From Thiorhodovibrio winogradskyi (GTDB lineage: Bacteria > Pseudomonadota > Gammaproteobacteria > Chromatiales > Chromatiaceae), in contig NZ_CP121472.1 in NCBI RefSeq assembly GCF_036208045.1, positions 1,003,531 to 1,067,530 on the forward strand: a DNA stretch of 64,000 nucleotides, read 5' to 3'. Numbering within the stretch: the stretch's first letter is position 1; each line of letters starts with the position of its first letter. The notes under the pieces were generated by a model. The model had not been told where the DNA came from. It was given only the letters and a program-made list of their open reading frames with translations, and ran no database searches. The position numbers were made by a program, and so were the translations under genes. Of the stretch, positions 17,734 to 57,293 are shown one piece after another.

Positions 17734-20004
17734 CTAATCCCCAAGGCTTTGCAGCAAGGTCTCGCCAGGCATTGGCATGCCGAAGTAGTAGCCCTGATAA
17801 CCGTCGCAGCGGCGGGCGCGCAGGAAGTGCAGTTGCTCTTCGGTCTCGACACCTTCGGCCATCACGCTGACCCGCAGATGGCGGCAGACGGAGAGGATGG
17901 CTTCCACCAGGGCGGCGTCGTTGGAGTCGGTGCTTAGATCCTGGATGAAGCTGCGATCGATTTTCAGCTCATCGACCGGCATGCGCTTGAGATAACTGAG
18001 CGAGGAGTAGCCGGTACCGAAATCGTCAATGGACAGGCGCACGCCGAGGTCTTTGAGTTCGCGCATTTTGAGCACAGTGCTTTGAATGTCCTCAATGACG
18101 ACGCCTTCGGTCAGTTCCAGGGTCAGGCGCTCGGGCGGGATGCCGGCGTCGCGCACGGCCTGGTGGACCTGGCTGACGAAATCCGCCTGGTGGAATTGCC
18201 TGGGGCTGACATTGACGGACATGCGCAACGCATGCTTGTGTGTGTCGGTGTGGGCGAGAAAATGGCACGCTTGGCGCAGCACCCAGCGGCCGATGGGTAG
18301 GATCAGGCTGGTGTCCTCGGCCACCGGGATGAAGACGGCCGGTGAGATCATGCCCTGGCCGGGATGGCGCCAGCGCAGCAGGGCCTCGGTGCCGGTCAGA
18401 CGTCCCGAGGCGTCAACCTGCGGCTGGTAGTAGAGGGTTAGGTCACGCTCTGCCTCGATCGCTTGCTTGAGTTCGCGCTCCAGATTAAAGCGCGCCTCGG
18501 CGGCCTCTTGCATGGATTTTTCAAAAAAACGCACACAATTGCGGCCACCCTCCTTGGCGCGGTAGAGCGCGGTGTCGGCTTCCCGCAGCAAGTCATGATC
18601 GCCATCCTCGGTGCCGCGCAGCAAGGTAATGCCAATGCTGATTTCCGAGTGGATTTCGCCCGCGGGCAGGTTGACGGGCAGGGCGACGCTGTGGCGAATT
18701 TTTTCCGCCACGGCGCGGGCGTAGTGGGAGGCCTCGGCCTCGTCCTCGGACAGATTACCGAGGAGGATGACGAACTCATCGCCGCCGAAGCGCGCGACCG
18801 TGTCTTCCGCGCGCAGCAGCGCACGCAGACGGGAGGCCACCTCGCGCAAGAGTTGATCGCCGATTTCGTGCCCGCGTGCGTCGTTGATCTGCTTGAAGCG
18901 GTCGAGATCGAGGAACAGTACGGCGCCGACACGACCATTGCGTCTCGCGCTGGCCTGGACACTGGCAAGGCGATCGAGAAACAGGCGCCGGTTGGGCAGT
19001 TCGGTTAGGGGGTCGAAGAAGGCGAGCTGATGGATGGCGGCCTCGCTCATTTTGTGCTCGGTGATGTCGAGGCAGCTCCCAGCAGCGCGGCGTGGGCGTC
19101 CCTTGGCATCGTGCTCGAAACCCTTGCCACGGTCAAGCAGCCAGATCCAGGCGCCGGATTGATGGCGGAAGCGGTACTCGAGCTGCACTCGGTCTCTTTG
19201 GCCGGTGAGCGCTTCGGCTGCAATGTGCTCCACGGTCTGGGCATCATCGGGGTGAATGCGCTCCCGCCATTCACTGATATTGCGTGGGATGTGCGCCGGG
19301 TCACCGCCGAGAATGCGCACGAAACGGTCGTCGTAATGGACTTGGCCGGTTTCGAGATTGACCTCGTAGAGGCCAACATCGGCGCCCTCGAGCGCCAGAT
19401 CCAGGCGTTCTTGCAGGTGCCGCTGGGCGCTGAGCGCGCTCTGGCGGCCGAGCAGACCATCGTAGACCCTGATGGCGGCCTCCGCGATCTGGCTGTCGGC
19501 GGCATTGAGCTGGCGGTGGCGGGCTCCGGCCTTGGGGCGGAGTCCCAGCAGCAGCATGCAGCGCGACGGCGGTGCTTCGACCCACAGGGCTTCGGCCAGT
19601 CCGGTGGCGCGCAGGATGGGGTGTTCCAGCGGCAGGCAGGCGTCGCGATTCGGTGACTCTTCGAGTACTGGTATGACGCTTTGCGGCGGAATGCCGAGCG
19701 CTTGCACCAGTCGATAGTGGCCAGGTGTATTCGTTACGTGAATAAGACCGGCGGCGTCAATCTTTAGCTGCTCGACCAGCAGCATCAGCAGTTGCGCTCC
19801 GAGTTGTTCGGGGTAGCTGTCTTCTTCAGGGAGTGATTGGGAGACGGCATGGACCTGTTGCACCACCAGCGCCAAGGTGCGGCTGCGCTGGGCCTCGCGC
19901 TGGGCGCGGGCGACTGCCTCCTGCAAGCGCATGATGCGGGCGCCGAGTTCATCGCACTGCTGGCGATAGTAGGCGAGGGCGTCTGGGTTGAGCGGGTCGT
20001 TCAC
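17734..20004 (-). CDS. PAS-GGDEF-EAL protein paired with a FIST sensor
   Basis: 756 residues. An N-terminal helical segment (rich in Arg/Gln/Glu, residues 10-45) is followed by a GAF-like region to about 185, then a PAS_3-type domain (ADVGLYEVNLETGQVHYDDRF to about 310). The GGDEF domain has an intact ARFGGDEF signature and the EAL domain is intact (TEALLRWRHP, LELTEG, IDDFGTGYSS, KIDRSF, MAEGVET). Both synthesis and breakdown of c-di-GMP are possible. No transmembrane helix is apparent, so it should be cytoplasmic. The FIST-domain gene ends 69 bp upstream on the same strand; FIST proteins often sit beside such enzymes and are presumed to modulate them. Confidence 0.92.
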   Translation of the reverse strand: MNDPLNPDALAYYRQQCDELGARIMRLQEAVARAQREAQRSRTLALVVQQVHAVSQSLPEEDSYPEQLGAQLLMLLVEQLKIDAAGLIHVTNTPGHYRLVQALGIPPQSVIPVLEESPNRDACLPLEHPILRATGLAEALWVEAPPSRCMLLLGLRPKAGARHRQLNAADSQIAEAAIRVYDGLLGRQSALSAQRHLQERLDLALEGADVGLYEVNLETGQVHYDDRFVRILGGDPAHIPRNISEWRERIHPDDAQTVEHIAAEALTGQRDRVQLEYRFRHQSGAWIWLLDRGKGFEHDAKGRPRRAAGSCLDITEHKMSEAAIHQLAFFDPLTELPNRRLFLDRLASVQASARRNGRVGAVLFLDLDRFKQINDARGHEIGDQLLREVASRLRALLRAEDTVARFGGDEFVILLGNLSEDEAEASHYARAVAEKIRHSVALPVNLPAGEIHSEISIGITLLRGTEDGDHDLLREADTALYRAKEGGRNCVRFFEKSMQEAAEARFNLERELKQAIEAERDLTLYYQPQVDASGRLTGTEALLRWRHPGQGMISPAVFIPVAEDTSLILPIGRWVLRQACHFLAHTDTHKHALRMSVNVSPRQFHQADFVSQVHQAVRDAGIPPERLTLELTEGVVIEDIQSTVLKMRELKDLGVRLSIDDFGTGYSSLSYLKRMPVDELKIDRSFIQDLSTDSNDAALVEAILSVCRHLRVSVMAEGVETEEQLHFLRARRCDGYQGYYFGMPMPGETLLQSLGD

Positions 20005-20073: not shown

Positions 20074-21399
20074 TCAGTTCGCTGTCGTCTGGCCGGACGA
20101 GGTCGGCGCGCCGGCGGTGCAGACCAGCAGCACGCCGGTCCAGTCGAGTGGCCGGGCGCGGCCGATGAAGGGCGCGATCTCGATGCCGGAATAAAAGCCA
20201 AGCAGCGGGCAGAGTGCGCCGATCAACTCGCGCACCGGGGCGGATTCGTCCTCATCGAGGCCAGCGAAGGCCATGGAGCGGCCGGCGCAGTCGATATAGA
20301 GCGCGAAGACTGGCTGAAGGCCAGTGAGTCGCTCGCGCAGCGCCTCTGTTTGGGTTTGGGCGGAGGCGATCATGCGCTCGGGTGCGTAGCTCATGATTTG
20401 AATGCGGGAACCAGGATGGAAGTCGGCCTCGGTTAGAATCAGGGCTTCCTCGGTCGGATCGATGGCGACCACGAGCCGATTGACGTATTGGTCGTCATTG
20501 AAGGGGGCGTAGAGGTCGCCGTGTTTCTCGCCGATGGTGATGGACGGCAGCGGCTGGCGGGCGAGGAGTTCCTCGCGGGTCAGGCGCAGACGTTCCTCGA
20601 CCACCCGCAGCGCCGGCTGGCCGTCGATCTCGAGCAGGCGGGCGCCGTCGATGCGGGTGACTTCAAGAAAATCGCTGGATGGCAGGCAGCCGTGCATGAT
20701 GGTGTTGTGTCCCCGCAGTCCGGCGGGCAGGACCACGGCCACGGCCGTGTGGCGGGTCATGCCCTCACCATCAAACAGATAACTGTCGGACATCTCGAGA
20801 TCGGTGAGGGTGCCGGCACCGAGAATCAGCGGCGGGTCGGTGCCGAGCGTCTGGTGCAGACCGTCGAGCAGGCGGCTGCACAGATGCAAGCTAGGGGGGC
20901 AGGTCTTGTTATTGACTGAATCATAGAACAGCAGCACCAGGCGCTCGGGACCGAGCGCCAGGGCGTTGAGCTGCTGGCCAAGCGCGCGACCGGCCGCGGC
21001 TTCGTCCACCTCCAGCCCGGCGACACGGATGATGGCCGCAGGCGCCAGCGCCTGGCTGAACAGCATGAGTCCGCATTCATAGCCGCTGCTGTGGGCGCCT
21101 TGCGCGGTGATGATGCCCGTGCCGCTGCCGCCGATGACGGGCAAAGGGCCGAGTTCGGCGCGCAGCCCTTCAAGGATGGCCGCGGGGTCGTGCTGTCCGC
21201 CGGCGAAGGCAAGCAGCCAGGCGGGTTTCTGGGCGGGTTCCCGGGCGGGGTCTGGATTGGGTTGCCGATAGCAATGCGGTGTGAGTCGGAGCTGGTCCAA
21301 TGCCTGTCGCGCGGCCAGGCGAGCGGCTGTGGAGGCATCGGCGTGGCGGGCCTGCCCAACGGCGACATCATGACCGGGATGATTCGAAGGCATGGGCAT
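20074..21399 (-). CDS. FIST domain-containing sensory protein
   Basis: About 441 residues from ATG 21399; the frame is open further upstream to 21507 but without family features. The N-terminal FIST_N region includes GSGTGIITAQGAHSSGYECGLM and a later ALGPERLVLLFYDSVNNK. The C-terminal FIST_C part includes FYSGIEIAPF, with GRSMAFAGLDEDESAPV before it. FIST domains are predicted small-ligand (possibly amino-acid) binding modules found with chemotaxis and c-di-GMP enzymes. Here the partner is the PAS-GGDEF-EAL protein 69 bp downstream. No signal peptide or transmembrane helix is visible, so it is likely cytoplasmic. The ligand is not deducible. Confidence 0.87.
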   Translation of the reverse strand: MPMPSNHPGHDVAVGQARHADASTAARLAARQALDQLRLTPHCYRQPNPDPAREPAQKPAWLLAFAGGQHDPAAILEGLRAELGPLPVIGGSGTGIITAQGAHSSGYECGLMLFSQALAPAAIIRVAGLEVDEAAAGRALGQQLNALALGPERLVLLFYDSVNNKTCPPSLHLCSRLLDGLHQTLGTDPPLILGAGTLTDLEMSDSYLFDGEGMTRHTAVAVVLPAGLRGHNTIMHGCLPSSDFLEVTRIDGARLLEIDGQPALRVVEERLRLTREELLARQPLPSITIGEKHGDLYAPFNDDQYVNRLVVAIDPTEEALILTEADFHPGSRIQIMSYAPERMIASAQTQTEALRERLTGLQPVFALYIDCAGRSMAFAGLDEDESAPVRELIGALCPLLGFYSGIEIAPFIGRARPLDWTGVLLVCTAGAPTSSGQTTAN

Positions 21400-21556
21400 A
21401 CATCTTCCGGGGTCTCGGGAAGGGCGAAGGTGGCGGCAGGCTGTCGCCAGTTTCACGATGCTTTCAGCCGTCAGTATACTAGATTCAAACCAGGCCTTGA
21501 TGCGCAAGCCGGGTCAAAGGTCTTTTGCACTTAAAGATGTCATCGAGAGGAGTGCC

Positions 21557-24277: not shown

Positions 24278-24428
24278 GGAAATACCTTAAACAAACTGAA
24301 AACGAAAAAAGGGAGACTGGGTCGCGGCTGGTCGCAAGCGACCTGGGTTTTGGACCCCAGCCAGGCAAAATGTGGCGGCGAACAGGTATAGAATAACAGC
24401 CCAAGCCCAGCGAAGAGGATCAACCGCG

Positions 24429-25010
24429 ATGAAATTTTGCAGTGAGTGCGGTGCGCCCGTTGCTGTCAGGGTTCCACAAGGGGACCATCGCCCGCGTCAT
24501 GTCTGCAAGGCCTGCGGCACCGTTCACTACCAGAATCCCAAGGTGGTGGTTGGCTGCATTGCGCAATGGGAGGACAAAATCCTGCTGTGCAAGCGCGCTA
24601 TCGAGCCGCGGCGGGGCTTCTGGACCCTGCCCGCGGGCTTCATGGAAAATGGCGAGTCGGCGCGCGAGGGCGCGGCGCGCGAAACCCTTGAGGAAGCCAA
24701 TGCCCGGGTCGACATCGGCCCGCTCTACAGCCTGTTTAATCTGCCGCACATCGGGCAGCTTTACCTGTTGTTTCGCGCGCGCCTGCTCGATCTGGACTTT
24801 TCCGCCGGTGACGAGAGCACCGAGGTGGGGCTTTTCACCGAAGCCGAGCTTCCCTGGTCGGGAATCGCCTTCGCGGTGGTCACCGAGACCCTCAAGCTCT
24901 ACTTTTCTGACCGCGGCAGCGCCGGGACCTTGCTCCATTCTGGCGATATTCATCGCGAAACCACGCGCAACCCCGGATCGGAGCGACACTACCGTGTGCT
25001 GCTCTACTGA
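24429..25010 (+). CDS. Nudix hydrolase with N-terminal zinc ribbon
   Basis: 193 residues. It begins MKFCSECGAPV and carries a second CKACG, making a CxxC...CxxC zinc ribbon. The Nudix box follows (GFMENGESAREGAARETLEEA, with the REXXEE core as RETLEE), preceded by RGFWTLPAGF. It is related to the NADH pyrophosphatase/ADP-ribose group, but the substrate cannot be fixed by eye; the SQPWPFPxS motif of NudC is absent. ATG 24429 was chosen over an upstream in-frame start because AGAGGA lies about ten bases before it and the zinc ribbon starts there. Its end overlaps the convergent GGDEF-EAL gene by 7 bp. Confidence 0.9.
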   Translation: MKFCSECGAPVAVRVPQGDHRPRHVCKACGTVHYQNPKVVVGCIAQWEDKILLCKRAIEPRRGFWTLPAGFMENGESAREGAARETLEEANARVDIGPLYSLFNLPHIGQLYLLFRARLLDLDFSAGDESTEVGLFTEAELPWSGIAFAVVTETLKLYFSDRGSAGTLLHSGDIHRETTRNPGSERHYRVLLY

Positions 25011-27187
25011 ATGCCCGCACTGAGTTGGTTCGATGGCCCGGGGCGCCCGAACAGATAGCCTTGGAAGGCGTCGCAACCGTGTCCGAGCAAAAAGTTGTAT
25101 TGCTCGTCGGTCTCCACTCCCTCGGCAATGACCTGGAGGCCCAGGCTGCGGGCCATGCCGAGAATGGCGTCGACAATGGCTGCGTCGCTTGAATCTTCCA
25201 GGAGGTCGCGGATGAAGGACTGATCGATTTTCAGTTGATCAAGCGGCAAGCGTTTCAGGTACGCAAGCGAGGAGTAGCCCGTGCCAAAATCATCAAGGGA
25301 GAATCCGATCCCACTTCCCTTGAGTGCCTCCATTTTTTGCGCGGCCTCGGTCATATCTTTCAGCAACAGGGTTTCGGTCAGTTCGAGCTTGAGGTGGCCG
25401 GGTTTGATGTGGTGAAGGGCGATCACTTCGCGAACCCGGGCGACGAAGTCCGGCTGCTGAAATTGATGGGCGCTGACATTGACCGCCAGCGTCAGTGCTG
25501 CTGTTCCCGGCTGCTTGGCCCAATTGGCAAGTTGTGCGCAGGCTTGGTCAAGCACCCAGTCGCCCAGAGGCAGTATGAGTCCGGTCTCTTCGGCCAGGGG
25601 GATGAAGACTGCCGGCGAGATTTGCCCTTCCGCCTGGTCTTGCCAACGCAGCAGGGCCTCGGCGCCGATGAGGCGCCGCTCGCGGTTGATCTGCGGCTGG
25701 TAGTCCAGCCACAGGCCGCCGTCACGCAGCGCGAGGCGTAGGCGATCCTCAAGTCGTGCTCGGCTTTCGAGTGCCTGCTGCATCTGCGGGTCAAAAAAGC
25801 GCCAGGTGTCGCGTCCGCTGGCCTTGGACTCATACATGGCCAGATCTGCGCGTTTGAGGAGTTCGTCGAGGGAGGTTTTTTGCTCGCCAAAGAGGGTGAT
25901 ACCTATGCTTAGCGTGCTGCGGGATTCATGTCCATCAATGAGGTAGGGTTCGCGCGCGTTGCGGTGAATCTTGGCGCAAACAGCCTCGGCCTGCTGCTGG
26001 GCCTCGTGCCGGTCCTGATCGAGCTCGCCCAGGATGAGTACGAACTCGTCACCGCCGAGCCGCGCCAGGATATCGGATTCGCGAATGGCGTTCTTGATTC
26101 GCGCGGCGACCTGCTGGAGCAGAATATCGCCAACATCGTGCCCGCGGGTATCGTTCAGCGTTTTGAAGTTGTCCAGATCGATAAAGGCCAGGGCGCCGTG
26201 GCGGCCACTGCGGATGTACTGCACAATCTGGCGGCTAACCCATTCCTCGAGCAGTCGCCGGTTGGGCAGGCTGGTGAGCGGGTCGTAAAAAGCCAGGCGA
26301 AAGATTTCTTCTTCGGCCGCTTTGCGCTCGCTGATGTCGGTCAGGGTGACGATGGTACCGAGCATGCCGCCATCGCTGCCAAGCCAGGGGCCGACGCCGA
26401 CCAACATGGTCAGGCTCTGATCTTGCAATTCAAGATGTGCCTCGAACGGATGGCGATCACGATCTCCAATAAAACCATGCAAATCGAACTGCGCGCCACT
26501 TGGCAGTCGCAGCGGTAGGACGTTGGCAAAGACCTGACCCAGAGGGTTAACAGCGCAGAGTTGGCGCGCGAGGGCATTGGCTCGCACCACCTGGGTGGTG
26601 CGGTCGCAGACCACAATGGCCTCGGTGGCCTGGTCGAGAATCGAGCGAGCCAGTCGCTCGGCGGCGAGAATGCGATCCTCATGGGCTTTTTGCTCGGCCA
26701 GGTCTGTTGCGACCAGGCTGAAATAGACTTGATCATGCCCGACGGGTAGCACGCTGACCGAGAGATGACAGGGGGTCTCGGACCCATCCGAGGCCACTAG
26801 CATGATCTCGATGCCGTGGGCCCGATGCGTGGTGTCCTGGCGCAGCAGACTGTCGAACCAGGGGTGATCGGCGGGCTTGATCCACTGCTTGAATGGGGTG
26901 CCGGCCAGGGCCTTATGGGTTGTCTTGAGCATCTCGCACAGACGTCGGTTGGCGTAATACACCAGGCCCGCGGCGGTCAGCACCAGGGCGCCCTCACTCA
27001 TGGATTCGATCAGGGCATGGTAGGAGGCATCGCTGCCCTCGAGCGTGAACAGGCGCTCGCTCAGACCTTGATTATTGGAAATGACCAGGGCGTCGATTTC
27101 GCCCTCGCGAATGGCGCGCAGGGTTTCCTCGGCGTCGGCGAGGCGCGCGCGCAGATGCTGGTTTTCGGCGCTCAGTTGATCAAACAT
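25004..27187 (-). CDS. PAS-PAS-GGDEF-EAL protein in the kaiCB operon
   Basis: About 728 residues from ATG 27187. A short coiled coil (MFDQLSAENQHLRARLADAEE) is followed by one PAS domain (ALIESMSEGALVLTAAGLVYYAN), a second (RSILDQATEAIVVCDRTTQVV), then GGDEF (ARLGGDEF, intact) and EAL (GAEALLRWQD, LELTET, LDDFGTGYSS, KIDQSF, IAEGVET, intact). No membrane segment is seen. It follows kaiB directly: the kaiB stop is at 27255, and a GTG at 27235 is an alternative start, so co-transcription is very likely. The arrangement suggests that c-di-GMP level is an output of, or an input to, the Kai proteins. Confidence 0.92.
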   Translation of the reverse strand: MFDQLSAENQHLRARLADAEETLRAIREGEIDALVISNNQGLSERLFTLEGSDASYHALIESMSEGALVLTAAGLVYYANRRLCEMLKTTHKALAGTPFKQWIKPADHPWFDSLLRQDTTHRAHGIEIMLVASDGSETPCHLSVSVLPVGHDQVYFSLVATDLAEQKAHEDRILAAERLARSILDQATEAIVVCDRTTQVVRANALARQLCAVNPLGQVFANVLPLRLPSGAQFDLHGFIGDRDRHPFEAHLELQDQSLTMLVGVGPWLGSDGGMLGTIVTLTDISERKAAEEEIFRLAFYDPLTSLPNRRLLEEWVSRQIVQYIRSGRHGALAFIDLDNFKTLNDTRGHDVGDILLQQVAARIKNAIRESDILARLGGDEFVLILGELDQDRHEAQQQAEAVCAKIHRNAREPYLIDGHESRSTLSIGITLFGEQKTSLDELLKRADLAMYESKASGRDTWRFFDPQMQQALESRARLEDRLRLALRDGGLWLDYQPQINRERRLIGAEALLRWQDQAEGQISPAVFIPLAEETGLILPLGDWVLDQACAQLANWAKQPGTAALTLAVNVSAHQFQQPDFVARVREVIALHHIKPGHLKLELTETLLLKDMTEAAQKMEALKGSGIGFSLDDFGTGYSSLAYLKRLPLDQLKIDQSFIRDLLEDSSDAAIVDAILGMARSLGLQVIAEGVETDEQYNFLLGHGCDAFQGYLFGRPGPSNQLSAGIQ

Positions 27188-27254
27188 CGCACCGGCCGGC
27201 GATGCGCCGGCGGGCAATTCCTGGCCGCTGGTCACGGGCGTTCTAGCAGCGGCG

Positions 27255-27587
27255 TCAAGGTTTGGCGGCAGGAGGTGTGACTGGGAGATCCAAGCCGAGC
27301 AGCACGCGATCACCGTCGGAAAGATCGCCGATGACTCTGCGCACCGGCTCGGGATGGCGACGTACCAGGGTGGGGATGGCAAGGATTTGATCCTCGCGTG
27401 CGAGTGCCGGGTTGTCGAGTAGGTCGATCACCTCAATGCGATAGGGGACGGCAAGACGTTGTTCGCACAACTGTGTCAGGTTGCTATAGGCCGCCACGGA
27501 TTTTGGGCTTTGCCCGGCGACATAGAGTCGCAGGAGCAGAGGGGAATCGGGCGTGCACCTGCCAGCGCCCGGAACCGAAATACTCAC
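27255..27587 (-). CDS. kaiB: Circadian-clock-type protein KaiB
   Basis: 110 residues, the normal KaiB length, with the thioredoxin-like start LLLRLYVAGQSPKSVAAYSNL, then VIDLLDNPALAREDQILAIPTLVRR and a C-terminal GDLSDGDRVLLGL. In cyanobacteria KaiB binds the KaiC CI ring after a fold switch; in other proteobacteria its role is less clear. Its ATG overlaps the kaiC stop by four bases (kaiC ends at 27584), which indicates translational coupling. The order kaiC then kaiB is the reverse of the cyanobacterial kaiBC order. No kaiA is present in the window. Confidence 0.94.
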   Translation of the reverse strand: MSISVPGAGRCTPDSPLLLRLYVAGQSPKSVAAYSNLTQLCEQRLAVPYRIEVIDLLDNPALAREDQILAIPTLVRRHPEPVRRVIGDLSDGDRVLLGLDLPVTPPAAKP

Positions 27588-29290
27588 TCGGGCTCTCCGG
27601 TGCTGGTTGCCCCTTGCCTCGCGGTATTGGCCATGTGACCCGCGTCATGCAGTGCGGTGTTTTCAGTATCCAGCGTGCCCTGAGTGCGCAGATCAAGAAG
27701 CTGGAACTCGGTTCTGAGTGTGTTGATGCGGGTTTCCATCAGGGTGCGCTGCAATTCCAGTTCCTCGCGTTGTTGCACAAGGCCGCGCTCGCGCTCGCGC
27801 GCCGCGCGCCGCGCTCGCTCTTCCTCGGCGACGCGGGCCGAGCCCGTCAGGCGCCCATCAATGCCCAGGTAGGGGTCAATCAGCTGGATGCCAGAGTTGG
27901 TCAGCTGGAACTCGCGGGTCTGGGTCGAATGTGCCATGCCGCGCGACTTGATGATGCCAAGACGACGGTTGCGCTCGCCATTGGCATCGACGGCGGTGAG
28001 TGCGATCCAGGTGTCGATCAGGGATGAAATGGCCACATCCGTGCGCTCGGAGACCTCGCCTCCTCCAGTGAGGCTGGTAAAAAAACCGGTAATACCCTGT
28101 AGCTTGATGAAATCCAGCATCCGCATCAGCATCGCTTTGACCTCGATAAGCTGCTGCGTTTCATGGGACTCGAGAAAACTGTTCAGCGGGTCGAGCAGAA
28201 CCGTCTGAGGTTTGAAATCCGTGATCTGCCGGTGCATGAGCGCCAGATGCATCTCCAGACCCGCGAAGGATGGTCGGGTGGCGACGATGCGCAGGCGATC
28301 TTGTTCGATCCAGGGGCTCAGATCGAGGCCAATGGAGCAAAGGTTGCGCACGATCTGGCTTGGGGATTCCTCGAATGCGAAGTAAAGCGCGCGCTCGTCG
28401 CGCTTGCAGGTCGCGTTGGCAAAATGGCCGGCTAGGCTGGTTTTGCCGGTACCGGCCGTGCCCGAGATCAGAATCGAACTGCCACGAAAGAACCCCTGGC
28501 CACCGAGCATGTCATCCAGGCGCTCGACGCCGGATGAGATGCGCTCCTGACTCGCCTCATGCGCGAGTGAGACCGAGGTGACGGGGAGAATGGAAATGCC
28601 CTCGTCATCGATCAGAAAGGGATATTCGTTGGTGCCGTGACCGGAGCCGCGGTACTTCAACACCCGCAGCCGGCGGGTGGAGACCAGGTGTTCAAGCTCA
28701 TGACTCAGCACGATGACGCAGTCGGAGACGTATTCCTCCAGTCCATGCCGGGTGAGGGTGCCATCGCCACGTTCCGCGGTGAGGATGACTGTGACCTCGC
28801 GTTCCTTTAGCCAGCGGAATAAGCGGTGCAGTTCGCGCCGCACAATGTTTGGGTTGGGCAGATTGCCGAAGAGTCTCTCGAGTGTGTCGAGCACCAGACG
28901 GCGGGCCCCAATGCGATCAATGGCATCGGCCAGGCGCAGGAAGAGCCCGTCGAGATCAAAATCGCCAGTGACCGCCGGCGTTTCCGGATCCAGCTCCACC
29001 TCGTCGACCAGCAGGCGTTTCTCCACCAGCAAGCTCTGTAGGTCGAAGCCGACCGAGGCAACATTGGCGCACAACTCCGGCATGCTCTCCTCGAACGCCA
29101 TGAAGATACCGGGCTCATTGAATTCGGTCGCGCCGCGGACCAGAAACTCCATGGCAAAGAGTGTCTTGCCGCAACCAGGTCCGCCGCAGACCAGGGTGGT
29201 TCGCCCGGCCGGCAGTCCGCCGCCGGTAATCTCGTCAAATCCCTGGATACCGGTTTTTGCCTTGTTGACAGGGGTGTTTACGCAGGACAT
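27584..29290 (-). CDS. kaiC: KaiC-type double RecA ATPase/kinase
   Basis: 568 residues with two RecA-like domains. CI has Walker A GGPGCGKTLFAMEF (about residue 35) and the Glu pair in AFEES. CII has Walker A SGTAGTGKTSLAGHF (about residue 273) and again AFEES. The CII phosphorylation region reads TDVAISSLID, with Ser422-Ser423 in the place of cyanobacterial Ser431-Thr432 and Thr417 matching Thr426. This Ser-Ser form is as I recall it for the proteobacterial KaiC2 group. After the CII core there is a highly charged coiled-coil tail (about 480-545, Glu/Arg-rich). It is first gene of kaiC-kaiB-PAS-GGDEF-EAL. Confidence 0.94.
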   Translation of the reverse strand: MSCVNTPVNKAKTGIQGFDEITGGGLPAGRTTLVCGGPGCGKTLFAMEFLVRGATEFNEPGIFMAFEESMPELCANVASVGFDLQSLLVEKRLLVDEVELDPETPAVTGDFDLDGLFLRLADAIDRIGARRLVLDTLERLFGNLPNPNIVRRELHRLFRWLKEREVTVILTAERGDGTLTRHGLEEYVSDCVIVLSHELEHLVSTRRLRVLKYRGSGHGTNEYPFLIDDEGISILPVTSVSLAHEASQERISSGVERLDDMLGGQGFFRGSSILISGTAGTGKTSLAGHFANATCKRDERALYFAFEESPSQIVRNLCSIGLDLSPWIEQDRLRIVATRPSFAGLEMHLALMHRQITDFKPQTVLLDPLNSFLESHETQQLIEVKAMLMRMLDFIKLQGITGFFTSLTGGGEVSERTDVAISSLIDTWIALTAVDANGERNRRLGIIKSRGMAHSTQTREFQLTNSGIQLIDPYLGIDGRLTGSARVAEEERARRAARERERGLVQQREELELQRTLMETRINTLRTEFQLLDLRTQGTLDTENTALHDAGHMANTARQGATSTGEPE

Positions 29291-29498
29291 GGGGGGCAGG
29301 AACCTTGGGGCTAGGATAGAGAATGGTTAACCCGGAAGTTTACCACTGATGGCGACCTGGTCTCTTGATGAGATTTGCCAACAAGGGGCTTGCGCGGGGC
29401 ACTGGGCTTTGATTGGCATCCTTGCCGTTCGCGGACTGTTATGGGATGCTTCCGCACCGATCTTTGGTGAGTCTGAGCGGCGGAGGTTTGGCGGGCGC

Positions 29499-30446
29499 AT
29501 GGCGTTATCTGAAGTTGTGCACACCTTTGGGTCTGACCTGCTCCGTCGTTACGGGGCGCGCGTGCACAAGCTCGCCATCCACGCTGGCTTTACCTGTCCG
29601 AACCGCGATGGTACCAAAGGGGTGGGCGGCTGCAGTTTTTGTAATAATGCCTCCTTCAGCCCGCATTCCCAGCGCGAACCGGGAATTGCCGAGCAGATTG
29701 CCGCGGGTCGGGCCGTGGTCCGCAAGCGCACGGGTGCGGTCAAGTTTTTGGCGTACTTTCAGGCGTATACAAATACCTATGCAGATGCGAAACGGCTTGG
29801 GGCCTTGTATCGCGAGGCGCTGGCCGAGCCCGATGTGATCGGCTTGGCGGTCGGTACTCGTCCCGATGCGGTGCCCGCGCCCGCGCTCGACCTGCTCGCG
29901 CGGCTGCGTGACCAAGGGTATGAGGTGTGGTTGGAACTAGGGCTGCAGTCGGCATTCGACGCGACCTTGGCGCGCGTGAATCGTGGGCATGATTTCGGCG
30001 ATTATTGCCGGGCGCTCGATCAGGCCCGGCAGCGCGGTCTGCCTGTTTGCACGCATCTGATTGTCGGGCTCCCGGGCGAAGGACGGGAGGCGGCACTCGC
30101 ATCCTTGGAGCGGGTATTGGAGCGCGGTACCTCTGGTCTCAAGTTCCATCCGCTGCACGTCGTGCGGCATACCAGGCTGGCCGACCATTGGCGGCGGGGT
30201 GGTTATCATCCTCTGACCATGGATGCCTACATCGAGATCGCGGCGGATCTCATCGAACGTACGCCCTCGGATGTGGTCTTTCATCGTGTGACGGGCACCG
30301 CATCGCGCGATATTCTGCTGGCGCCTGACTGGTGCTCAAAAAAATGGGCGGTCCTCAATGGCATCGAGCAGGCATTGCGGCGACGCGGCACTCGGCAGGG
30401 TGCTCGAGTGGGTGATCCGCTCACCGGCGCCTGCGATGCGGCTTGA
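29499..30446 (+). CDS. Radical SAM protein, YhcC/TIGR01212 family
   Basis: 315 residues. The iron-sulfur motif is of the extended type, HAGFTCPNRDGTKGVGGCSFC, which has a longer first spacing than the standard CxxxCxxC; this is typical of YhcC. Other matches are KFLAYFQAYTNTYA and LPGEGREAALASLERV. The C-terminal RTPSDVVFHRVTGTASRDILLAPDWCSKKW also fits the family. The substrate is unknown. ATG 29499 was selected because GGAGG lies about a dozen bases upstream and homology begins at MALSEVVHTFG; the longer upstream frame has no family match. It is divergent from kaiC. Confidence 0.9.
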   Translation: MALSEVVHTFGSDLLRRYGARVHKLAIHAGFTCPNRDGTKGVGGCSFCNNASFSPHSQREPGIAEQIAAGRAVVRKRTGAVKFLAYFQAYTNTYADAKRLGALYREALAEPDVIGLAVGTRPDAVPAPALDLLARLRDQGYEVWLELGLQSAFDATLARVNRGHDFGDYCRALDQARQRGLPVCTHLIVGLPGEGREAALASLERVLERGTSGLKFHPLHVVRHTRLADHWRRGGYHPLTMDAYIEIAADLIERTPSDVVFHRVTGTASRDILLAPDWCSKKWAVLNGIEQALRRRGTRQGARVGDPLTGACDAA

Positions 30447-30543: not shown

Positions 30544-31539
30544 ATGGAACTGGTTTGTCCTGCCGGCAATCTGCCGTCGCTTAAAACCGCTGTCGATCAT
30601 GGCGCGAACGCGGTCTATTTTGGATTTCGCGACGATACCAACGCGCGACATTTCGCCGGGCTGAATTTCGCGCCCAACAAAATGGCCGAGGGTGTGGAAT
30701 ACGCCCGCGGGCGCGGGGTGCGGGTGTTCATCGCGCTCAATACCTATCCACGCCCCGACGGCTTCGGGCGTTGGCAGGAGGCGGTGGACCGAGCGGCTGA
30801 TCTTGGCGTGGACGCACTCATCGCGGCGGATCTTGGGGTGCTGGATTATGCCAGCTCCAAGCATCCTGGGTTGACCTTGCATCTGTCGGTGCAGGGCTCG
30901 GCCACCAACTACGAGGCGCTGCGCTTTTATCATGAGCACTTCGGCGTGCGCCGCGCGGTGCTGCCGCGGGTGTTGTCCATGAGCCAGATTCGCCATGTGG
31001 TGGAGAACAGTCCGCTGGAAATCGAGGTCTTCGCCTTTGGCAGTCTGTGCGTCATGGTCGAGGGGCGCTGTATTCTGTCTTCTTATGCCACCGGCCGTTC
31101 GCCTAACACCTATGGTGCCTGTTCGCCGGCCAGTCATGTGGAGTGGATTGAAACGCCAGACGGGCTCGATACGCGCTTGGGTGGTGTGCTCATCCAGCGC
31201 CACCCCAAAGGCGAGAATGTCGGCTATCCAACCTTGTGCAAGGGCACCTTCAGGGTCGGTGATCACACCTATCACGCGATCGAGGAGCCCACCAGCCTGA
31301 ATGCCATGGAGTTGCTGCCGGAGCTGGCCGCCGCGGGTGTCAAGGCTGTCAAGATCGAGGGGCGTCAGCGCAGCCCGGTCTATGTCGGTCAGGTGACCAA
31401 GGTGTGGCGTCAGGCGCTTGATGCCTTCGCGCGCGATCCAGAGCACTTCACGCCAAGGCCGGAATGGACCGCCGAGCTAGGCAAGGTGTCCGAGGGCGCG
31501 CAGACCACTCTGGGAGCTTATCACCGACCCTGGCAGTAG
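30544..31539 (+). CDS. ubiU: O2-independent ubiquinone biosynthesis protein UbiU (U32 peptidase family)
   Basis: 331 residues, beginning MELVCPAGNLPSLKTAVDHGA, the UbiU/YhbU start. Four cysteines fall at residues 169, 176, 193 and 232, the same numbers as I recall for the [4Fe-4S] ligands of E. coli UbiU. With UbiV it hydroxylates ubiquinone precursors without oxygen, which is useful to an anaerobic or phototrophic proteobacterium. AAGGAA precedes the ATG. ubiV starts 50 bp downstream on the same strand, so they form an operon. The sterol-carrier-like UbiT is not encoded nearby. Confidence 0.94.
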   Translation: MELVCPAGNLPSLKTAVDHGANAVYFGFRDDTNARHFAGLNFAPNKMAEGVEYARGRGVRVFIALNTYPRPDGFGRWQEAVDRAADLGVDALIAADLGVLDYASSKHPGLTLHLSVQGSATNYEALRFYHEHFGVRRAVLPRVLSMSQIRHVVENSPLEIEVFAFGSLCVMVEGRCILSSYATGRSPNTYGACSPASHVEWIETPDGLDTRLGGVLIQRHPKGENVGYPTLCKGTFRVGDHTYHAIEEPTSLNAMELLPELAAAGVKAVKIEGRQRSPVYVGQVTKVWRQALDAFARDPEHFTPRPEWTAELGKVSEGAQTTLGAYHRPWQ

Positions 31540-31589
31540 ATGCCCCAGATAACCCAGCCTGGCGTATTGTCCGTGATTGATTCTCACAG

Positions 31590-32609
31590 ATGAAGACCAC
31601 TATGACCTCAGCCTCAACACAAGCCGCGAGCCCAACCGTGACTCCGGCCACGACGCCAACTGGCAAACCATCTGGCAATCCAGGCGTAACAAAGGCGGCT
31701 TCTCGTCCCGGTCCGCGCCTATCACTTGGCCCCATTGGTTACTATTGGCCCAAGGACAGAGTCGATGCCTTCTACGCCCAGGTCGCGCAACTGCCGGTGG
31801 ACATTGTTTACTTGGGCGAAACTCTCTGCTCCAAGCGCAAGGAGCTGAAATTCGAGGACTGGCTGGCCATTGGTGAGCGCCTGCTGGAGTCGGGCAAGGA
31901 GGTGGTGCTGTCCACCCTCAGTCTGCTGGAGGCCGAGTCCGAACTCATTCGCCTGCGCTTCATCTGTGATAACGGCCGATTTTTGGTCGAGGCCAACGAC
32001 ATGGGTGCGGTGCATCTGCTCCAGGGCCGGCCCTTCGTGGTTGGACACAGTGTCAACATTTATAACGACCGCAGTCTGGCGCTGCTGGCCCGGCAGGGTC
32101 TTAAACGCTGGGTGCTGCCGGTGGAGTTGACCGCCGAGACCCTGGCCGATATGCAAGAGCGGCGCCCGGACGGCGTGGAGACCGAGGTGTTGGCCTATGG
32201 ACGCTTGCCCCTGGCGTACTCCGCTCGCTGTTTCACCGCGCGCGCACGCAATCTGCCCAAGGATGACTGCCGTTATTGCTGTATCGACTATCCCGATGGC
32301 CTGGTGGTCGCGACCCAGGACGATCAGAGCTTTCTTGCGCTCAATGGCATCCAGACCCTGTCCGCACGCACGGCCAACCTATTGGCCGAATTGCCACGCA
32401 TGCGGGAACTGAAAGTCGACATTTTGCGCATCAGCCCGCAGGCTGAGCAGACCGATGAGATCATCCGGCTGTTCGACCTGGCCTTGCGTGGGGAACTCAG
32501 TCCGGCCGAGGCCGCGACCAAGGCAACGGAGCTAACACCAACGGGCGCTTGCGATGGTTATTGGCATGGCGGTGCTGGCATGGAGCAGCAGGTCAAGACG
32601 GTCCAGTAG
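31590..32609 (+). CDS. ubiV: O2-independent ubiquinone biosynthesis protein UbiV (U32 peptidase family)
   Basis: 339 residues, with about 40 extra Ser/Thr/Pro-rich residues before the family start LSLGPIGYYWPKDRVDAFY. Cysteines at 80, 214, 227 and 231 keep the 13- and 4-residue spacings of the E. coli UbiV cluster ligands (RCFTARARN, KDDCRYCC). It forms a heterodimer with UbiU and carries its own [4Fe-4S] cluster. A shorter start inside the non-conserved N-terminal segment is possible; no clear ribosome site was found to decide it. Confidence 0.93.
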   Translation: MKTTMTSASTQAASPTVTPATTPTGKPSGNPGVTKAASRPGPRLSLGPIGYYWPKDRVDAFYAQVAQLPVDIVYLGETLCSKRKELKFEDWLAIGERLLESGKEVVLSTLSLLEAESELIRLRFICDNGRFLVEANDMGAVHLLQGRPFVVGHSVNIYNDRSLALLARQGLKRWVLPVELTAETLADMQERRPDGVETEVLAYGRLPLAYSARCFTARARNLPKDDCRYCCIDYPDGLVVATQDDQSFLALNGIQTLSARTANLLAELPRMRELKVDILRISPQAEQTDEIIRLFDLALRGELSPAEAATKATELTPTGACDGYWHGGAGMEQQVKTVQ

Positions 32610-56875: not shown

Positions 56876-57275
56876 GGGAGTCGGCCAGACAATCGCTGTT
56901 CGGGCCTTGTTCGCAAGGTGCCGGGGGGAGGAAAGTCCGGGCTCCGCGGGGCAGGGTGCCAGGTAACGCCTGGGGGGCGCGAGCCTACGGAAAGTGCCAC
57001 AGAAAAGATACCGCCAACCCCGCCGCCAGTCATCTGGTCGGCGGGCGGTAAGGGTGAAATGGTGCGGTAAGAGCGCACCGCGCTTCTGGTAACAGAAGTG
57101 GCAGGGTAAACCCCACCCGGAGCAAGACCAAATAGAGGAGCAGGCGATCATCAATGAGTTGATTGCGCCATGCGGCCCGCATGGGCTCCCGGGTAGGTCG
57201 CATGAGGCAGACGGTGACGTCTGTCCCAGATGAATGATTGTCCACGACAGAACCCGGCTTATCGGCCGACTCCCC
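56876..57275 (+). ncRNA. rnpB: RNase P RNA (rnpB), bacterial type A
   Basis: The conserved core GAGGAAAGTCCGGGCTCC starts near 56931, and AGACCAAATAGAGGAGCAGG, GGGTAGGTCGCATGAGG and the 3' AGATGAATGATTGTCCACGA segment follow in order, as in other RNase P RNAs. The P1 helix can be seen as GGAGTCGGCC (56877) with GGCCGACTCC (57264-57273). Length about 395, near the 377 of E. coli. It processes tRNA 5' ends with RnpA. It lies between holC and a site-2 protease gene. Confidence 0.96.
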
Positions 57276-57293
57276 TCACTGTTGAAGAATTGA

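Follow-up and report, generated by a model that had tools for sequence, protein, structure and literature searches.

A kaiB-linked N-terminal module on candidate output proteins of KaiC2-type kai loci, including a GGDEF-EAL protein of Thiorhodovibrio winogradskyi

A locus of Thiorhodovibrio winogradskyi poses in a concrete form the question of how KaiB-KaiC timers are read out outside cyanobacteria: does a kaiC-kaiB pair act, through the gene that follows it, on cyclic di-GMP (c-di-GMP)? We analysed a stretch of 64,000 nucleotides (nt), hereafter the window (NZ_CP121472.1, GCF_036208045.1, positions 1,003,531-1,067,530), in which open reading frames (ORFs) and domain searches delineate a compact minus-strand unit of kaiC, kaiB and a gene for a PAS-PAS-GGDEF-EAL protein (Table 1). 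This layout bears out the initial annotation, which had described three minus-strand genes, a 4-base-pair (bp) overlap of kaiC with kaiB and a c-di-GMP enzyme gene behind them: the stop codon of kaiC and the start codon of kaiB share the sequence GTGA (27587-27584), and the third gene starts either 19 nt (GTG 27235) or 67 nt (ATG 27187) past the kaiB stop, the ATG being the preferred candidate, which fits the conserved start in relatives. We suggest that the unit is a KaiC2/KaiB timer with a dedicated output enzyme, a reading towards which the evidence, on balance, leans: a segment at the N-terminus of the third protein, here called the module, would read the Kai state, and c-di-GMP turnover would follow.

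The linkage of the three genes was compared in 19 of the 80 loci fetched for the family, namely the 18 other members of the KaiC clade that includes the window (19 rows with support 99 in a tree built by a quick method from 131 KaiC rows; support values from the Shimodaira-Hasegawa-like approximate likelihood ratio test, SH-aLRT) and L152, which lies outside it. In 15 of the 19, kaiB is followed by a GGDEF-EAL gene, aligned in a single piece over 63 percent or more of the length of the third gene; the other four hold a distant homologue (L152, 36 percent identity), a kinase (L132), no partner (L141) or a cut locus (L126). The same-genus relatives L119 and L120 share all three genes of the unit but none of the nine flanking genes of the window within their 16-kb locus, so the trio is kept together against rearrangement and its linkage is beyond chance. 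The initial annotation had left the conservation of the third gene to such a comparison of neighbourhoods; the gene is conserved and, in the two same-genus relatives, its flanks are not. It is very improbable that a c-di-GMP gene merely happens to stand beside kai in a GGDEF-rich genome, even though the GGDEF matches there number 60, partial and split ones included, and a second GGDEF-EAL gene is found about 5 kb further along the same strand (17734-20004): the linkage recurs in 15 of 19 loci, no flanks are common with the two same-genus relatives, and the third gene carries an N-terminal module tied to kaiB. By our estimate, which assumes ~5000 genes, the chance of a GGDEF gene as next neighbour is about 1 in 100. 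We reject chance linkage, as the two relatives keep the trio without those flanks and the module is tied to kaiB. Since the linkage is conserved without its flanks and the gene bears a kaiB-linked N-terminal segment, the functional tie of KaiBC to c-di-GMP that had been proposed at the outset is supported; its direction and any part in light/dark cycles, motility or attachment stay where the initial annotation had them, as suggestions.

The module itself is a conserved segment of ~45 residues (a helix and a predicted hairpin) ahead of the first PAS domain. Its consensus over 26 diverse rows, LxxENxxLRxRLxEAEETLRAIRxGEVDALVVSGxxGxxxFTLxGADxxYRxLVExMxEGA, ends in the first helix of the PAS domain, and G26 and D29, at the end of the module helix, are invariant across these rows. 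An AlphaFold2 model of module plus PAS domain (62 sequences) predicts a helix over residues 2-27, a hairpin at 33-36/45-48, where mean confidence is 64-81, and the PAS domain; the fold matches listed for it (best 50 of 1347) are PAS or LOV (light-oxygen-voltage) sensor proteins and are thus uninformative on the hairpin. No known family was found for the segment in Pfam (six rows, best E 0.053) or NCBIfam (four rows, best E 0.023, with the R. sphaeroides copy), and the best match of a PDB profile search was a release factor domain over 36 positions (E 0.0048). Weak NCBIfam and PDB matches of the helix-strand part to ribosome hibernation factors suggest, at most, an alpha-beta likeness. Our module profile has 62 positions and was built solely from kai-linked rows; it matches the window protein with E 2.6e-27, the sole match in that genome (32 of 58 candidates scored) against its 60 GGDEF and 94 HATPase matches. 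When cut before the PAS helix it found 99 ORFs, every one within the full-profile set. Fusions of KaiB or KaiC to the module were absent among the ORFs of the window and of L039-L198. Visual inspection of the GGDEF partner that follows kaiB in L194 shows a diverged module-like segment ahead of the PAS region, under the profile threshold, and the module family may accordingly be wider than counted.

Beyond the window, the module keeps close company with kaiB. For 111 loci in which kaiC precedes kaiB (five are repeat fetches of the same contig), the gene in the slot after kaiB was picked, and 88 of these slot genes bear the module: 41 are HATPase proteins, 25 GGDEF or GGDEF-EAL proteins and 22 others. 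In 4 of the 23 loci with a module-free slot gene another ORF bears it (L061, L069, L071, L091). Seven further kaiC-kaiB loci have no ORF of 200 codons, and three of them show the module in a cut frame. As for the other GGDEF, EAL or HATPase ORFs of the same loci, 3 of 128 have the module, each beside a lone KaiB.

The same association was found in searches of 888 genomes, 194 of the family, 398 of Pseudomonadota and 296 of Bacteroidota (the phylum of the genome of L087), in which KaiB was sought with the window protein as query in the family and with the Pfam profile in the other two samples; in the three samples no more than 15-32 candidates per genome were scored at first. The module occurs in 32 of 52 KaiB-positive versus 0 of 142 KaiB-negative genomes of the family (36 matches), in 11 of 38 versus 1 of 360 Pseudomonadota (12 matches in 12 genomes) and in 19 of 27 versus 1 of 269 Bacteroidota (20 matches in 20 genomes), giving Fisher p-values of 3e-23, 2e-11 and 1e-22, respectively, which do not correct for kinship. 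The KaiB-negative exceptions are a 27-residue remnant behind a kaiC-kaiB remnant in Pseudomonadota and a 31-residue match (E 9.8e-4) in Bacteroidota. Placement is equally regular: 35 of 36, 10 of 12 and 19 of 20 matches lie just downstream of KaiB on the same strand, and the four that do not are all partial (G178, 2-26; G301, 1-27; G242, 4-49; G781, 7-37). Full-length copies number 34 in the family, 10 in Pseudomonadota and 19 in Bacteroidota, the window's copy being shared by two samples, and all 62 distinct ones are found 21-304 nt downstream of a KaiB match on the same strand, while none of the 771 KaiB-negative results (142 + 360 + 269) contains one.

Among 32 genomes selected for a kaiC locus, at least two of which (G591, G593) repeat sample genomes, as judged by identical places, 27 carry the module (30 matches). 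One second copy stands at a second kaiC-kaiB-kaiB locus (L242), another (G591:C123) is a fragment with a twin in G141 beside a KaiB fragment, and the third, in L243, is a true orphan, to which we return below. On plasmids, 18 records have a KaiB match, of which 12 loci were read and six further R. sphaeroides records left out; the module is present in 7 of 7 kaiC-first loci, three of them from R. sphaeroides strains, and in 0 of 5 kaiB-first or lone-kaiB loci. The kinase linked to kaiCB in R. sphaeroides thus carries the module, as detected with the profile.

Behind this constant N-terminus the outputs are exchanged. Across phyla the module precedes HisKA, HisKA_2, HisKA_3 and HWE kinases, GGDEF-EAL and HD-GYP proteins, and proteins with PAS domains only. 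The 14 scanned of the 22 'other' slot genes comprise four HD-GYP proteins (L041, L049, L065, L082), seven HisKA-type kinases and three with PAS only; 18 further loci add three HD-GYP (L259, L263, L264, from the Bacteroidota sample), eleven HATPase, one HWE kinase and one GGDEF-EAL partner, with one lacking a recognised output and one cut. The catalytic motifs are present in all seven of these HD-GYP proteins. It is an even chance, in our judgement, that KaiC2-kind timers in Pseudomonadota, Bacteroidota, Chloroflexota and methane-oxidising archaea share a coupler that docks on KaiB or KaiB-KaiC, with outputs swapped behind it, c-di-GMP hydrolysis (EAL, HD-GYP) adopted at least twice, and a readout independent of SasA.

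Which Kai protein the module would contact is hinted at by three genomes of one genus, in which a lone kaiB, with no kaiC match in the locus, is followed by a module kinase; KaiB rather than KaiC may thus be the contact. Each of the three also holds a kaiC-kaiB-module locus elsewhere (L126, L129, L138). Two anecdotal cases of decay fit a module that is useful only alongside Kai. In G301 (L246), all that is left of kaiC and kaiB is a single remnant of 84 codons, in which the KaiC start is joined to the KaiB end, and the module behind it has no hairpin, with the PAS-GAF-HD-GYP frame of 1039 codons still open. In G178, a weak KaiB match contains stop codons and a truncated module lies on a different contig. 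The module might instead be nothing but a dimerisation or signalling helix of the PAS family, inherited with the operon and co-transcribed for dosage, with no Kai contact, as the single long helix predicted for residues 2-27 (a common dimer element) and the persistence of the genes as one inherited block would allow. We regard this as improbable, given the single copy in the window genome amid its many GGDEF and HATPase matches, the retention of the module on unrelated outputs across phyla, the invariance of G26 and D29, and the lone kaiB of the three genomes that is again followed by a module kinase.

Several observations weigh against a dedicated, module-mediated readout. The module matches are related by descent, so the p-values overstate the association. 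An orphan full-length module, on a 1776-residue kinase (L243), has no KaiB in its 14-kb stretch; the same genome also holds a second, kaiB-linked copy. Sensitivity matters, since a single-sequence module search of the plasmids gave one record and the profile at least seven, and divergent copies elsewhere could be missed because kai-linked rows alone went into the profile. KaiB also occurs without the module, in 27 Pseudomonadota and 8 Bacteroidota genomes of the samples; L141 is a kaiC-kaiB pair with no partner, L134 has a partial kaiC, kaiB and a kinase frame lacking the module, lone kaiB genes 62-66 percent identical to the window KaiB stand without it in L144, L148 and L149, kaiC-kaiB pairs do so in L083, L088 and L111, and a different gene occupies the slot in L075, L094, L106 and L109. 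A second KaiC class (L162, L174, L175, L180, L182, L187, L188) has module-free GGDEF-EAL partners, so the module is not the sole route. Finally, a terminator-like hairpin (27206-27188) lies inside the gap between kaiB and the third gene, although such sites are no commoner than in shuffled sequence (4 found vs 4.0 expected).

Some of the KaiB-positive family genomes without the module have kaiB-first clusters whose KaiC has a short tail; others hold the second KaiC class or loci that are bare or broken (L141, L134, and the lone kaiB in L148). On a wider list, which adds L172 and L179, the second class consists of kaiC with kaiB and GGDEF-EAL and no module; its GGDEF motif reads SGDEF or SGDEL in six rows and GGDEF in L162, and the EAL site is kept in 7 of 7 read. 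It is apparently a separate Kai link to c-di-GMP. By eye, the slot gene of L075, L094, L106 and L109 resembles a cyclic-nucleotide (CRP-type) regulator. In L169, L190 and L191, KaiB-like genes surround histidine kinase genes within a single cluster, and the stretch has no kaiC.

What would the third protein of the window do? The initial annotation had called both of its catalytic sites intact, and inspection of the GGDEF motif, the RxxD inhibitory site and nine EAL positions agrees, so that by its active sites the protein would be a bifunctional GGDEF-EAL enzyme. Wherever the EAL domain could be read (30 rows, of which 23 carry the module and 7 lack it), the nine positions are all preserved. 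Of 25 module-bearing GGDEF rows, 21 retain GGDEF and RxxD; both are lost in L045, L050 and L152 (the last being the same contig as L045), and L068 is unreadable there. Of eight module-free GGDEF rows, L162 and L194 keep GGDEF and six read SGDEF or SGDEL, altered forms that may still be active. Every readable kai-linked GGDEF-EAL protein has an intact EAL site, including those whose GGDEF is gone, and elsewhere the same module is borne by c-di-GMP hydrolases of the HD-GYP type, an independent solution, which makes hydrolysis the shared feature; the main activity of the window enzyme is therefore probably c-di-GMP hydrolysis by the EAL domain. The 21 rows that keep GGDEF, the window included, count against this, as they could synthesise c-di-GMP; the window protein might do so too, or use GGDEF as a guanosine triphosphate (GTP) sensor.

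The flow of information could also run the other way, the PAS protein sensing redox or energy and setting the KaiC/KaiB state through the module, with the enzymes as side branches or upstream. The best fold matches of the model, the PAS domains of the oxygen sensors FixL and DosP and of SO_1695, speak for such an input, as does the suggestion, cited in the accessible parts of PMC5520375 and PMC10931921, that the kinase beside R. sphaeroides kaiBC brings a redox signal to the clock. We nevertheless consider it unlikely, since a constant module with varied catalytic domains behind it suits the reading of a common signal, and c-di-GMP hydrolase domains would presumably be superfluous in a device for input alone. 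The cysteine pattern for flavin binding in LOV blue-light receptors is absent from the third protein.

Returning to the output reading, the KaiC of the window is of the KaiC2 type. PF06745 covers it in two stretches, corresponding to two ATPase domains, with P-loops GGPGCGKT and GTAGTGKT and a catalytic Glu pair (FEES) in both halves; two serines occupy the phosphorylation positions, Thr417, five residues before Ser422, is likewise kept, and the C-terminal extension runs 98 residues beyond the second ATPase match, against a KaiC2 criterion of ~50. Its closest solved structure is R. sphaeroides KaiC (8dba, 625 bits, residues 8-554), and that of the window KaiB is 8fwj, KaiB of the R. sphaeroides complex. 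KaiB scores below the NCBIfam cut-offs for circadian KaiB (93.1 vs 110 bits; 89.8 vs 145.3). It also matches the solved protein Lpp1115 (4kun), which we take to be the KaiB of the Legionella pneumophila kai operon. In the 19-row KaiC clade, 16 partners are module-bearing GGDEF or GGDEF-EAL proteins and one is a module-bearing kinase (L132); L141 has no partner, and L126 ends at a contig end with the module present in a cut frame. In L122, L124, L135 and others, kaiC and the partner are separated by two unlike tandem kaiB genes, whose products are about 63-66 and 47-53 percent identical to the single window KaiB.

We propose that the energy state of the cell (adenosine tri- and diphosphate, ATP/ADP, and hence light or dark) would set KaiC phosphorylation and KaiB binding; both have been shown to reflect energy state in the R. 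sphaeroides homologues, where, according to PMC10076222, the KaiC dodecamer forms through the coiled-coil tail. The module, by its helix and hairpin, would then recognise the Kai state, most likely via KaiB or the KaiB-KaiC complex, filling the role of the KaiB-like domain of cyanobacterial SasA with a different fold. The PAS domains may integrate a second signal and pass the state on to the GGDEF-EAL part, and c-di-GMP would fall or rise with phase, time of day or energy. The module would in this way tie timers to c-di-GMP, which is a switch between swimming and settling. If this is true, timer-read outputs become recognisable from sequence. In Synechococcus, according to the parts of PMC13001216 available, c-di-GMP shifts the clock but does not act directly on the Kai reactions in vitro.

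Table 1. The kai unit of the window and its features (window coordinates)
Feature	Position	Strand	Description and support
kaiC	27584..29290	-	568 aa (amino acids), KaiC2-type: two ATPase domains, Ser-Ser phosphosites, C-terminal extension; Pfam PF06745 1.3e-101
Candidate phosphorylation positions Ser422-Ser423	codons 28022..28027	-	alignment to 8dba; tree-alignment column letters TSS
KaiC C-terminal extension, Glu/Arg-rich	27587..27802	-	aligns with coiled-coil tail of R. sphaeroides KaiC, to residue 554
kaiB	27255..27587	-	110 aa, GTG start; PF07689 2.5e-26
PAS-PAS-GGDEF-EAL gene	25004..27187	-	ATG 27187 start; alternative GTG 27235
Kai-linked N-terminal module: helix, predicted beta-hairpin, first PAS helix	26984..27178	-	alignment, genome searches, AlphaFold2 model
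PAS domain 1	26708..27022	-	PF00989 1.4e-8
PAS domain 2	26321..26638	-	PF08448 9.3e-12
GGDEF domain, A-site + RxxD I-site intact	25808..26293	-	PF00990 1.1e-45; residue check
EAL domain, nine checked catalytic positions intact	25040..25747	-	PF00563 9.3e-76; residue check

The unit is bounded on one side by a convergent Nudix gene (24414-25010), which runs 7 bp into the end of the third gene, and on the other by a divergent radical SAM gene for transfer RNA modification (29349 or 29475 to 30446); because of these boundaries an operon of exactly three genes, presumably co-transcribed, is the simplest reading. A promoter scan found no promoter-like site (0.9 expected), which is chance level, and an Rfam search had no match at the kai locus. 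In the single-contig genome of 5.48 Mb, KaiB is matched once and KaiC with both domains occurs once, while five further matches of the KaiC profile are weak; two photosynthetic reaction-centre subunit genes are also present, so that the organism is very probably phototrophic. The absence of kaiA that had been noted initially holds for the annotated neighbours of the unit; it has no confirmation genome-wide, where no KaiA search was made. The neighbouring GGDEF-EAL gene a few kb downstream, on the minus strand, also encodes PAS and is preceded by a FIST-domain sensor gene (20074-21507, minus strand). Elsewhere in the window are a class A RNase P RNA (56877-57277, plus strand; RF00010, 328.6 bits) and two adjacent genes (30544-32609, plus strand) resembling a U32 peptidase-type pair that we presume to be UbiU/UbiV, of oxygen-independent ubiquinone synthesis.

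Among known systems, SasA and CikA of the Synechococcus clock have a like role, being signalling enzymes that read the Kai state through a dedicated domain. In SasA this domain is KaiB-like (PMC3164672, in part), whereas domain searches found no KaiB-like or receiver domain in the window protein, which is therefore not a SasA-type output kinase; central cyanobacterial output factors are reported missing outside cyanobacteria in the parts of PMC5520375 available, which also describe KaiB and KaiC of the KaiC2 kind in the kai operon of Legionella pneumophila. The linkage of kaiCB to GGDEF/EAL is already known, and the window unit is a member of this arrangement: De Luca et al. 2011 (PMC3164672) described kaiC or kaiB immediately followed by genes for histidine kinases or GGDEF/EAL proteins, and their first context group, kaiCB followed by GGDEF/EAL, has the same linkage as the window. 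In Thiodictyon syntrophicum, likewise of the Chromatiaceae, as inferred for the window, a diguanylate cyclase lies beside kaiCBB, with two kaiB versus the single kaiB here, and Luedin et al. 2018 (PMC5944118) proposed that they act jointly and may time flotation. As far as their accessible text goes, both papers describe the gene neighbourhood alone, and a shared N-terminal module of the group and HD-GYP partners go unmentioned. We found no description of the module or of HD-GYP partners of kai in a literature that leaves subscription papers largely uncovered, and within that reach the module is the new part.

The nearest counterparts are the kaiC-kaiB-PAS/histidine kinase operons of R. palustris and R. 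sphaeroides, as far as described in the text available of Ma et al. 2016 (PMC4794148) and PMC10076222 (the main text of the latter does not use the term 'histidine kinase'), which resemble the window in gene order and in the PAS protein in third place. The initial remark that kaiC comes first, reversed from cyanobacteria, thus stands relative to kaiBC of Synechococcus but does not set the window apart, the same order being found in these two species (PMC4794148). R. sphaeroides, whose KaiB and KaiC have already been purified and solved, further shares the KaiC2 Ser-Ser sites, the C-terminal tail and the same N-terminal module, there carried by the kinase; the difference from both species is the output, GGDEF-EAL in the window and not an HWE kinase.

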